Position numbers and translations under genes: made by a program
Source of the DNA: Phialocephala subalpina
Lineage: Eukaryota > Ascomycota > Leotiomycetes > Helotiales > Mollisiaceae
Length of the DNA stretch: 64,000 nt
Direction of reading: 5' to 3'
NCBI GenBank assembly: GCA_900073065.1
Contig: FJOG01000025.1
Coordinates: 310,001 to 374,000, forward strand
The notes under the pieces: model-generated
The model's input: only the letters and a program-made list of their open reading frames with translations
What the model was told of the DNA's origin: nothing
Databases searched by the model: none
Part shown: positions 13,520 through 50,661 of the stretch, one piece after another
Layout: the number at the start of each line of letters is the position of its first letter
Numbering within the stretch: position 1 is the first letter of the stretch

Positions 13520-15430
13520 GTTGACCGGGTGACGAGTTGATGTACAGAAATGAGGGTGCAACTCAAGTGATAGTCAGATGGAGTTGCAGCTTCGAGGCTG
13601 TGGGGCGAGGCTTATGCTGAGCAACATGTTCCTTGATTCGAGTCATTGACGAGAACTCAGCCCCGCTGCTCAAAATCACTTTCATCCTTTGAACTATTTC
13701 CTTCTCTCAGGTCATCTTTTCTTTGATTCATCGATCATTTCCCTTGTTTATCATCGCAATCGTCCTTTAAGTCGACAGTAGCATCTGAGAGTCGTGGTCC
13801 TCGAGGTTGTTGTTTGCACTGTCAGCGTACTCCTCACTGCAATTCATCGTGCTTCAACAACGAAGCGTTCATGTGGCAAATTTCAAGAACTTAAAGTGTT
13901 TTTGAACGTTGTCTCCTTGGATACAAATTTATTGTTGAAGGATGACTGGTTATCGTCTCGCTCTTTTGAAGTGTTTGACCGCGTTTCAACACAGTCATGA
14001 CAACTTGGCGTAAGCGCGAGCAAAATACGGTGAAGGTTCATGACAATCTTCACAGCTGTAGGGGACTGCTGCTCCCCAGTTTTCATGAGAAGTGTTGAGC
14101 GAACGAGAAGTCTGAGTGATCTTTAGTAAAACAACAGACATATTGTCGCGTAACTTACAGCTTTCACACTTTTTTGATTCCCAAATTTGTCCCGTACAAC
14201 AGTGCCAAAGAGAACTTTCAGTTTTGATTTATCCCAGCAGCTGCATGAGCCAAAATATCTCAAAGTAAGTGGTGCTGGGCGATGAGATCTAAAAAGGGTA
14301 TGTCCGACCGTCTTGTATATGCTGGAGAGGACTTGAGAACTTGATACGTCGAGCAGGCTGAATTTTTTGCTGGGCTGTAATCATAATACTGAGGATGCGT
14401 GGGAGAAGTCCCGTTTCCATTACAAATAGTTAATTAGGCGTTTCAAAGGATGCTTATGAGTCGAGGAGCCGAGCTCTTGAGAGCACTGCTCTTTCCAAAA
14501 TTGTAATTTCAGGGCAGGGTTTATACATACTCGAGATGGCAAAGTGACGGACTCAACTTAAATTTAAGGAAAAACGTCCCGGAGCAGGTTCCAAGTGATG
14601 GAACATGTGATGGCAGATCTGACGTGGAGTGGAAGCTCGCTCCCCGTGATGTAGCAGCCGAACCGCGTAAAGTATATCTCGGTCAACACCAGACTGTACA
14701 GGAACTGGTGGGATATTGGAAATGGTGTTTCCAAGATTGTGATGACATCAGCTTAGGCCTAGAAGACCTTGCCCATCAGAGCGTTCTCTTGAAACCCATT
14801 TCTTGTGTCGCACGTGGCCAAGCTGTGGAAAACCTATTTCGTCAGCGTTCTTGTCCACTTGATCGTATTTCCGGCACTGTCTCGCGATTTCTTCATCTTT
14901 TTGAGTGATTCAATGCCTTTCTCAAACATCGAGAGATGGCTTTTCGTCGTCCGATCTTGAGTGGGCTTGGAGCAGCTGCTCTAATAGCATGGCCGTTAGA
15001 ATTGGCAGGTGCTGAAACTGTCAGAAACTTGGCCTTGGCTATAAGCGTGCCGAAAGCAGATAACTGAAAATGTTAGATGATGTTCAGTAAATCTTGAAAG
15101 TTGAAAGCGATTCTAGTTAACATACCTTCTTATAAACGGAAAATTTCCGACCATGGCTTCTTTCCACAGTCGCAATCCGAAGGTTAAGATCATACTTTTC
15201 TCCACACATAAAGCAGTTGCCTTTGATTGGATAGTTCGGGCTTTGTGGTGGAAGGCCAAGTTTCTGCAACTTAGTATTAGGCGTGGAAAGCCATTTCTCG
15301 CCTTACCAGTTCACGCAAGCGCAAAAATGACTAGGCTTATCGTTCAACTTAGTCTCTCCTTTTAGCTCTCTGATGGGGCCATATTCCAGGTAATTGGTAC
15401 GAGACCCCTCGACAACTGGATCCTTTGAAA
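13520..15430. other. Long spacer with one possible small secreted peptide
   Basis: No supported gene. Frames at 13794-14000 and 14624-14908 have no domain or splice context. One 43-aa frame at 14936-15067 is listed separately. Confidence 0.5.
14936..15067 (+). CDS. Possible 43-aa peptide with hydrophobic N-terminus
   Basis: An ATG opens a 43-codon frame beginning MAFRRPILSGLGAAALIAWP and ending in VPKADN. The N-terminus resembles a signal peptide with a possible AGA cleavage site. No homologue is recognised, the frame is short and the surrounding DNA is not otherwise coding, so chance is quite possible. Confidence 0.15.
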   Translation: MAFRRPILSGLGAAALIAWPLELAGAETVRNLALAISVPKADN

Positions 15431-17740: not shown

Positions 17741-18630
17741 ATGAAAGTCATACTTACCGGCTGCACAGGCATGATCGGTTCAGAAACCCTCCGCCAATCC
17801 ATCCTCCACCCTTCTAGTACGTGCAATCTTGCCCTTTGTTTGAAGAGATATTCAGAGCCGAACTCTTCGCGAGTACTGCGAACTCGGCTCCTCCGCTCCT
17901 CGACTCCCAAATCATACTTCAGTTCGCATATTGATTTATCTACAGTAACCTCAATAATCATCCTCTCCCGCCGGCCCCTCCTCCCCTCAAAACTCTCCCC
18001 AAAGGTCAAAGTCATCATCCTCCCAGACTTCGCTGCCTACAACAGCTGGCTCTGGAAAGATCTCGCCGGAGCAAAAGCCTGCATCTGGACATTGGGCGGT
18101 ATACCTAGCAAATTCCCCGATCTCGCAACTGCGAAGAAAGTCAATATAGACTATCCGTTTGAAGCTGCGAAGGCTTTTATTGAGCATCTGGCTCCCCAAG
18201 TTCCCGGTGGTGGGAAGTTTCGGTTTTTGTATGTTAGTGGGCATGCGGTAGATCGGAATTTGGAGAAGAAGCATTGGGTTTTTAATGATGCGATCCACAT
18301 TAAGGTGAGTCCTTCCTTGAAGCGTTGAAGAATGTTGATTAAGCTGGCCGAAACTTTCAGGGGGAGATTGAGAATAAGCTCAATCAACTCCAGCAGTCGA
18401 ATCCAGACACATTCGCAGCGTATCTCCCAAGACCGGGAAGCGTCATTCCGCCGAACAGTATGCTGTTAACCATCGCTGGAAAACTGACGAATGGACTGTA
18501 TCCAGCTCTGAAAGTTGAAGAGTTTGCTGCCGCGATGATCGGCGTTGCAATCAACGGCGCATCAGAGCAGATCATTTCGCACGATGATCTGAAGAACAAG
18601 GGAAGAGCGTTGTTGGACAAGGGCGCGTGA
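17741..18630 (+). CDS. Atypical SDR / NAD(P)-binding Rossmann protein
   Basis: Protein of 234 aa with three exons: 17741-17816, 17946-18304 and 18361-18630. The N-terminus MKVILTGCTGMIGSE carries the GxxGxxG nucleotide-binding motif (residues 7-13). After the first intron the second beta strand reads ITSIIILSRRPL, followed by CIWTLGGIPSKFPD, a VNIDYPFEAAKAF helix and FRFLYVSGHAVD. The layout matches short NAD(P)-binding proteins related to HTATIP2-like atypical SDRs, where the substrate is usually unknown. No classical YxxxK pair is obvious. The first intron is 129 nt, more than twice the usual length, and is homologous to an intron in the gene at 49.2-50.7 kb (see the mobile-element entry). 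The second intron (18305-18360) is ordinary. Confidence 0.75.
17817..17945 (+). mobile_element. Introner-like element (intron 1 of SDR-like gene)
   Basis: A 129-nt intron starting GTACGTG and ending GATTTATCTACAG. It shares two identical blocks with the intron at 50232-50356 on the opposite strand: 21 nt at 17831-17851 and 26 nt at 17896-17921. The middle holds a GAGCCGA...TCGGCTC inverted repeat able to form a hairpin. Two non-homologous genes sharing one intron sequence is the defining sign of introner-like elements described in other ascomycetes. Confidence 0.8.
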
Positions 18631-34676: not shown

Positions 34677-35056
34677 GGAATCGATTAAAATGGCGACAGG
34701 CCACAAGGCATCAACATAAGCACACCCAAATCTGTGAATGCCGCTTTATCTCGCTTAAGCAATTGACTTGGAAAAAGTCGCGATATCGATGCAAAGTGCA
34801 ATTGCTACGCAGCTAATTCACAACTTTTTATAATTTTAAAAACTGTAATCTCATTGTATTAATTGCGTATTAATTATTAGTTTATAAAATAATTGAGTTT
34901 ATTGCGTAAGTGGTTGCCGCAAAAGAGTTCAATTAGGTAGTGTAAAAGGGGTATATCGCTTCTTTAAAATAGCGTGAGTGCCTGAAAACTCGTGATTGCA
35001 AGGGCTAGGTTGAGTGTGTTGATACCTTATAGCATGTCGCCATTTTAATCGATTCC
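34677..35056. mobile_element. 380-bp non-autonomous DNA transposon (hAT-type MITE)
   Basis: Perfect 22-bp terminal inverted repeats lie at 34677-34698 and 35035-35056 (outer bases GGAATCGATTAAAATGG). They are flanked by an exact 8-bp direct repeat GGACTTTG at 34669-34676 and 35057-35064, the target-site duplication. The interior is AT-rich (34800-34920) and has no coding capacity. An 8-bp duplication is typical of hAT elements, although the terminal bases are not the usual CAG/TAG, so the superfamily call is inference. The perfect repeats and intact duplication suggest a recent insertion. Confidence 0.85.
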
Positions 35057-49240: not shown

Positions 49241-50661
49241 CTATTGCGCTTTCTTCGGCTCATCACGAGCTTTCGGTTCAGTCATCTCAGTCATGGCAGT
49301 ATTGTTGGCCTCGATATCGGCAGCCCACAGTGCTGCTCCAACTAAATCAAATGGGTAAGTAGGGGAGGCGAGTTGCGGTGAAGGGAGCTAGTTTACCTGT
49401 GTTTGTGAAAGTGAAGAAGATTGAGGCAAAGGGAATGAGCTCAAGTAGAGTAGCGACGGTTCCGAATCTATTTCAGGTCAGCTTCCTTGTTTCGCGCAAA
49501 GTTGCAAACAATATGGCTGTGGCGTTCGGTTCGGGATGATCTTCAACGGTCCAGGTTCAAGGGCACGAAAATGTCCGGCCAGCCTCTGAACAATGACCAT
49601 GGCGTTGCACCTCCATCTTCAAATATATTGTGGCACCAAGGCCTGATGAAAGAAAAACGAAAAACGTACGCAGTGTAAGGGGCAGTGTTCTCCTTCAGCC
49701 AATCTTCTTTCTCCGCATTGGTCCACTTCTTCAATTGGAAGTACTAGGCAGGTGTCAGTCGTTTGAGTTCAAATGCAGAGTGGAAATAACTTACTCGTGT
49801 ATGCACCGAGTGGCCTCTCGTTCGTCCTTGCAAAAGAACGAAAAGAACAGTTCCAACCACGGGAATAAAGTTGAGAGGTAGATACATCACATATCTGACC
49901 AAGGCCTTCGGTGTGAACTTCTCAAATGGGGACTTCATAAGCTTGCCCAGCTTTGCAATCGGGTCATTGAAGTTTCCAGACTTCAGTTGTCGTCCTTCGG
50001 CGAGAATCTCTGTCTGTCTTCTTGCTACCAAGACTCCATCAAATGTATCAACCAATGCATCTTGCAATAAGAAAGTTCGTGAGAGGAGGTTGATTAAGGT
50101 TGAGCTCTCGCTGAGGGTCAGGAGGATGGTGGTGAAGGCAGCTAGAGGTCCGTTGACGAAAACCAGTACCGCGAGTTGTGGGAGGTAGGCAACCACAAAC
50201 ATGAAAGCGATCACTACGACGGACAAGGTCACTATAGATAAATCAGTATCCGATTTGAAGTATGATTTGGGAGTCGAGGAGCTGAGGAGCCGGGAGGAGC
50301 CGGCGAAGAGCTCGGCTCTCTATATCTCTTCAAACAAAGGGCATATTCTCACGTACTGGTTGGGGCGAGTTTCGAGAGAAGTGGTTTCCATAGTGACTTG
50401 TGGCTGAGGAAGTAGAAGATACCCTGCTTGCTGTCAGAGATGGTTTTAGAATTTTTGGCCGCACCAGCTTACCTTCATAGGGTACAAGTAAGCTCCAGAC
50501 TTTGCAGCTGATTTTGCCAAAGCCCTGACTTTATTGAAGTCCTCTTGCCTGCATCCAAGTCAGATCAGGTGCCCGATGAGGGTTTATCTAGGACCAACCC
50601 ACGCCACTTCTTTGGCTTTGGTTCTGACATTCTCGATTGTGCTTGAAGACTTTGAAGACAT
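49241..50661 (-). CDS. EI24/Rrt8-like multi-span membrane protein
   Basis: Conserved fungal membrane protein of 295 aa, similar in layout to the EI24-like/RRT8-LDS outer spore wall and lipid-droplet proteins of yeast. Seven exons on the minus strand: 50661-50595, 50543-50473, 50423-50357, 50231-49795, 49743-49670, 49467-49397 and 49341-49241; all phases agree. Sequence landmarks: GAYLYPMK-GIFYFLSHKSLW, then the membrane segment TLSVVVIAFMFVVAYLPQLA, FVNGPLAAFTTILLTLSE, YVMYLPLNFIPVVGTVLFVL (characteristic helix pair), YFQLKKWTNAEKEDWLKENT and FGTVATLLELIPFASIFFTF. The tail is polar and ends EPKKAQ. The third intron (125 nt) is an introner-like element, and intron 5 is also long (202 nt) but unrelated to it. 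The first splice junction (donor GTCCTA) is the least certain. Confidence 0.78.
50232..50356 (-). mobile_element. Introner-like element (intron 3 of EI24/Rrt8-like gene)
   Basis: A 125-nt intron on the minus strand, from GTACGTG at 50356 to ATTTATCTATAG at 50232. It is homologous to the intron at 17817-17945: the identical 21-nt block is 50322-50342 and the identical 26-nt block is 50256-50281. A GAGCCG...CGGCTC hairpin lies in the variable centre. Confidence 0.8.

Follow-up and report, generated by a model that had tools for sequence, protein, structure and literature searches.

Introner-like elements are known from the fungi Fulvia fulva, Dothistroma septosporum, Zymoseptoria tritici and relatives of these species (PMC4457414). 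Fungal introners are described as preferring AG/GY sites, an observation for which PMC8469720 credits van der Burgt and colleagues. In the stwintrons of the Hypoxylaceae and Xylariaceae, by the accounts given in PMC8469720 and PMC12403724, the insertion sites are random and without exon bias, and the elements have terminal symmetry.

The repeated introns that we describe here lie in the genome of Phialocephala subalpina, and they are almost certainly introner-like elements, that is complete spliceosomal introns that multiply as a unit into the exons of unrelated genes. The comparisons with published families that follow are comparisons of features. They differ from the Dothideomycete elements in that the host belongs to the Leotiomycetes, the word at the insertion point (marked by a vertical bar) is CA|TNG or A|TG and not AG/GY, and the structure is not clearly stable. 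With the sister stwintrons and cropped introns they share seamless insertion, repeated intron sequences and an ascomycete host outside the Dothideomycetes, but the sites here are strongly biased and terminal inverted repeats are absent. As in the DNA-transposon introners of algae and other eukaryotes (PMC9860276), the intron is made by an inserted repeated element; unlike those, the elements here lack both target-site duplication and terminal inverted repeats. No paper in the literature searched joins Phialocephala subalpina and introners; the species tables of PMC9860276 may include the host. The sole paper found there with both 'introner' and 'Leotiomycetes' is listed as one on two Dothideomycetes. 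The elements are of a known kind; what is new, as far as the literature searched shows, is the class of the host, the existence of a second family and the non-canonical word.

Two copies in the window and their host genes

The window, a stretch of 64,000 nt analysed as a whole, contains two full-length copies of what we call family 1. Copy 1 (17817..17945, plus strand) is a phase 1 intron of 129 nt that splits the codon of Ile26 (A|TA) in host gene 1, which encodes an SDR-like NAD(P)-binding protein (17741..18630, plus strand; exons 17741-17816, 17946-18304 and 18361-18630). Copy 2 (50232..50356, minus strand) is a phase 1 intron of 125 nt that splits a Met codon (A|TG) in the 5' part of host gene 2, encoding an RRT8/EI24-like protein (49812..50661, minus strand; exons 50661-50603, 50548-50473, 50423-50357 and 50231 onwards). 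The alignment of the two runs from end to end (17817-17945 against 50356-50232), and when the assembly was searched with copy 2, copy 1 was returned at E = 4e-28 with 82% identity across the whole element. The assembly searched comprises 68.1 Mb in 119 contigs, and so differs somewhat from the 205 scaffolds and 69.7 Mb given in the P. subalpina genome paper (PMC5148876). Besides this pair, only two other repeat pairs are present in the window (seed 14, length 24).

The original prediction was that one intron sequence is present in an SDR-like and an EI24/Rrt8-like gene, and this is borne out, as are the splice ends that it assigned to both introns. The identical blocks it reported are real, with lengths one base greater than it gave in each case, at 22 nt (17830-17851) and 27 nt (17895-17921). 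It had also claimed that both elements exceed 120 nt and are longer than most of their neighbours. This agrees with the ordinary introns of the same genes, which measure 56 nt in host gene 1 (18305-18360, plus strand) and 54 and 49 nt in host gene 2 (50602-50549 and 50472-50424, minus strand).

On removal of the element, the protein of host gene 1 is identical to PAC_13855 of Phialocephala subalpina at all 234 residues, and that of host gene 2 matches PAC_13865 without a difference over 92% of the query, including the junction; both deposited proteins are gene-model predictions. These matches identify the host as a helotialean root endophyte (Leotiomycetes), and the Dothideomycete setting that had been suggested does not apply.

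Two families in many unrelated genes

A profile search of 68 fetched loci gave 71 placements of family 1, three of which are weak (the second copy in L059 at 21.5 bits, L067 at 18.1 bits and L068 at 28.1 bits). DNA searches with either window copy had each found at least 40 places, and further copies came from DNA searches with five other copies and one older copy, and from two pattern searches whose reversed-pattern controls both gave 0 matches. Two partial hits were removed from the family 1 placements and turned out to belong to a second family. Family 2 has at least 41 copies, 112 to 128 nt in length, that start with GTATGTATAA and end near TACTAACTTCTTGTAG. The family 2 profile matches all 40 scored places, among 86 first-look candidates, and one additional copy lies in L046; 30 of the 40 places were fetched. 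The many genome-wide copies foreseen by the original prediction are there, in unrelated genes.

Families 1 and 2 have in common a hairpin and CTCCTCGACTCC-like segments. Since the family 2 profile also picks up some family 1 copies (E between 1e-6 and 9e-4), the two are probably distant, weakly related relatives. Eleven pairs of copies in different genes are at least 97% identical over aligned columns. The closest family 1 pairs, identical at 98.6 and 100% of aligned columns, lie on different contigs, and this suggests that family 1 was active fairly recently.

The hosts of the elements are unrelated to one another. Among 20 host peptides, hand-picked for recognisable sequence, a Pfam family was matched by 16, and for 15 the top match crosses the junction (one of them just under the Pfam cut-off). 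The families represented include glycosyltransferase, HET, tyrosinase, asparaginase, astacin, transporters, methyltransferase, ubiquitin-like and others.

Some genes appear to collect insertions. A family 1 and a family 2 copy occur together on one strand, 265 to 688 nt apart, in four of the 68 family 1 loci (L020, L038, L043 and L046), where random placement would, by our own arithmetic, give about 0.1 to 0.2. There are two family 1 copies each in L002 and L059, and two introner-like elements within one gene are also known in the species of PMC4457414. L051 holds a tandem family 1 pair (minus strand, 988-1226), arranged head to tail a few bases apart with the 5' part of the second missing, and this appears to be a tandem or nested remnant. 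At L007:1501-1629 lies a family 1 copy that is otherwise well kept but whose final AG reads AT, and it may go unspliced at that border.

The window itself carries a decayed family 2 element on the minus strand (14420..14530; 67.4 bits, E 5.3e-20), overlooked in the original prediction, with flanks CGA|TGG that fit the family 2 target word described below. Read as 14530-14420, its 3' end has GTAA in place of GTAG, and a search for a long reading frame with an AG end around 14420-14530 found none. Elsewhere in the window is a 40-nt inverted repeat (34677-34716 and 35017-35056), 90% complementary with its arms 300 nt apart, which resembles the ends of a small inverted-repeat element.

A stable structure had been proposed for the elements, on the strength of a GAGCCGA/TCGGCTC hairpin. 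In copy 1 this hairpin is present (17855..17890, plus strand, with arms at 17855-17861 and 17884-17890); copy 2 has changes in this region and is predicted to fold differently. Fold z-scores in eight copies are unremarkable, from -0.34 to -1.53, and RNAalifold found four pairs with no compensatory pair, a low number that arises partly because the alignment splits the stem. RNA structure across the whole element is thus unsupported by either method. One hairpin was compared in 45 of the 71 copies (39 distinct), which were free of indels and picked for resemblance in the hairpin region. Of its 312 pair cells 278 are kept, a value reached by 14 of 1000 shuffles; it has three double changes, a number reached by 109 of 1000. 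An inner stem is not supported in the 39 distinct sequences, and no Rfam family reached the gathering score in the five loci searched. The signal for one hairpin is weak, and so is the case for a stable element.

Splicing, junctions and the target word

Either the 5' or the 3' border was moved to reach GT or AG in L007, L027, L051 (second copy), L057, L060 and L061. One tally left out L007, L027, L057, L060 and L061, which have odd borders, together with both L051 copies. With some ends adjusted in this way, GT-AG ends are found in 68 of the 71 placements of family 1 and in 30 of the 31 copies of family 2, and the elements are 103-153 nt in length. Junctions and reading frames were scored in 98 copies, comprising 68 of the 71 from family 1 (without L007 and L051) and 30 of the 31 from family 2 (without L110). 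A branch-point-like CTRAY is found near the 3' end in 93 of these.

The best codon frames were determined independently over 75 nt on each side of the element, and they agree in 77 of the 98 copies (family 1, 55/68; family 2, 22/30). Shifting the junction by one or two bases lowers the agreement to 12/98 and 11/98. Reading is open in 81/98 when the element is spliced, and in 3/98 when it is retained. The sense codon score exceeds the antisense score in 75 copies, and the antisense is at least as high in the other 23. The elements appear from these scores to be co-linear with transcribed genes in the copies scored, and they can be removed by splicing with the protein predicted to be unchanged.

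The insertion looks seamless. Repeats in register at the junction are limited to 0 or 1 nt in 95 of the 98 copies, and no terminal inverted repeats were found, with means, uncorrected for chance, of 4.7 and 4.1 matches of 12. Homologues of the host proteins align without a gap at the junction for both host gene 1 (10 sequences) and host gene 2 (18 sequences). The same is true of a family 1 copy at a conserved glycine of an SDR, a family 2 copy that splits a conserved Asp codon (GA|T) of Hsp70, and a family 2 copy that splits a Met codon of RidA. Nine loci paralogous to host gene 1 (36-51% identical) have no intron and are unbroken through residue 26. From these paralogues and the near-identity of copies we infer intron gain.

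The bases around the junction indicate a sharp preference, for CA|TNG among main-class copies of family 1 and for A|TG in family 2. Within the GTACG/GTGCG class of family 1 (n = 41), position -2 is C in 32 copies, -1 is A in 39, +1 is T in 30 and +3 is G in 31; in family 2 (n = 30), -1 is A in 20 copies, +1 is T in 28 and +2 is G in 27. Over the 68 clean family 1 copies A is at -1 in 48 (P 5e-16 against local exon composition). Outside the main class the word is weak, and A directly precedes the insertion point in 6 of 19 GTAT copies and 3 of 9 GTAA copies. It is sharper near the consensus: ranked by profile score from high to low, A is at -1 in 33/37, 7/15 and 8/16 copies. The flanks are T|GG in 10 of the 71 family 1 copies. 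The idea that T|GG and CA|T are one word shifted by a base is not firmly supported because -2 is A in only four of the ten, and the T|GG copies do not form one clade.

The word is absent from 22 ordinary introns taken from these loci and from the window (median length 52 nt; 6, 8 and 8 in phases 0, 1 and 2), a small control chosen heuristically, and the exon junction AG|GY is found at 0 of the 98 copies. Phases 0, 1 and 2 number 3, 37 and 28 in family 1 and 4, 20 and 6 in family 2. From the word alone 22% of family 1 insertions would be in phase 0, more than the 3/68 observed, and 19% of those of family 2, where 4/30 were seen; family 1 thus shuns phase 0 beyond what its word accounts for. The junction codons are conserved in the homologues examined, which suggests that the word was already in place before insertion.

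Routes of spread

We favour a route through RNA, because whole introns are inserted seamlessly into coding exons without the marks of a transposon. An excised-intron RNA route has been proposed for fungal introners by others (PMC3443670, PMC8469720). The excised intron would reverse-splice into a transcript, or into transcribed DNA, and would then be converted to DNA. The word at the insertion point would reflect what the inserting machinery binds, and a word there is to be expected if the inserting complex reads the exon. We put RNA-mediated, site-selective copying at about an even chance, and we regard the statement as a whole, an introner-like element that spreads in this manner, as somewhat probable.

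A movement of DNA is the obvious alternative. The elements could be small non-autonomous transposons of the algal type, mobilised by a transposase, that obtain a splice site from a target-site duplication such as AGT. Most introners do move as DNA according to PMC9860276, and in most main-class copies A|GT on the left and AG|T on the right make up an AGT direct repeat. Yet with such a duplication the exon would lose one base and the frame would shift, and the conserved junction codons are intact; together with the in-register test, in which a repeat of 2 nt or more is missing from 95/98 copies, this leads us to reject duplication of AGT, and terminal inverted repeats are likewise absent. Clustering along contigs would suit a process at the level of DNA. 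On the window's own contig, C54, lie 8 of the 71 copies of family 1 where 1.07 would be expected, and in 7 of 71 cases a copy is on one contig with its nearest relative, against an expectation of 2.8 (P 0.034). However, the contig test is biased because search seeds came from C54, two of the eight being the window copies themselves, and local hopping along contigs is suggestive only. DNA transposition is therefore hard to square with the junctions, contig clustering leaves it some room, and we consider it unlikely.

Whole introns might instead have entered at random, for example as intron RNA captured during break repair as for the stwintrons, with the word emerging later through selection on splicing. 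Insertion of this kind would be equally seamless, and selection on splicing could in principle shape exon ends. But the word differs from the customary end of an exon, since AG|GY is never seen at these junctions and the 22 ordinary introns lack the word; less decayed copies show it more sharply, and the conserved junction codons of the homologues examined place it there already. We think random insertion rather improbable. That the elements are ancient introns which have not spread recently and have a conserved non-coding RNA in common was named at the outset as a case that would overturn their identity. The one hairpin kept among the 45 comparable copies could be read in this way. Against it, covariation is weak and Rfam gave no family at the gathering score in the five loci searched, the similarity extends from splice site to splice site, near-identical copies sit in different genes, and nine paralogous loci are empty. 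This reading seems to us very improbable.

Returning to RNA-mediated, site-selective copying, a further parallel may be drawn. In group II intron retrohoming a whole intron is inserted at a preferred exon word, and in that one respect the elements here are alike. They are not members of that class, having spliceosomal splice sites and a branch point in 103-153 nt, and Rfam gave no group II match at the gathering score in the five loci. A tentative proposal is that they represent a spliceosomal counterpart of retrohoming. The excised intron, held by the spliceosome or by another carrier, might recognise (C)A|T(N)G and reverse-splice there; the words would differ somewhat between the families, and the target would be set at least partly by the intron. 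We offer this as a doubtful but specific possibility.

The origin of new introns is an old open question. The seamless landing of other fungal introners, at AG/GY or at random, tells little about mechanism. The present elements extend introner-like elements to the Leotiomycetes, as far as the literature searched shows. With two families in one genome, each with a sharp, non-canonical and slightly different word, P. subalpina would provide a handle on the mechanism, as each word might be matched to the binding of a spliceosomal part or of a nuclease.
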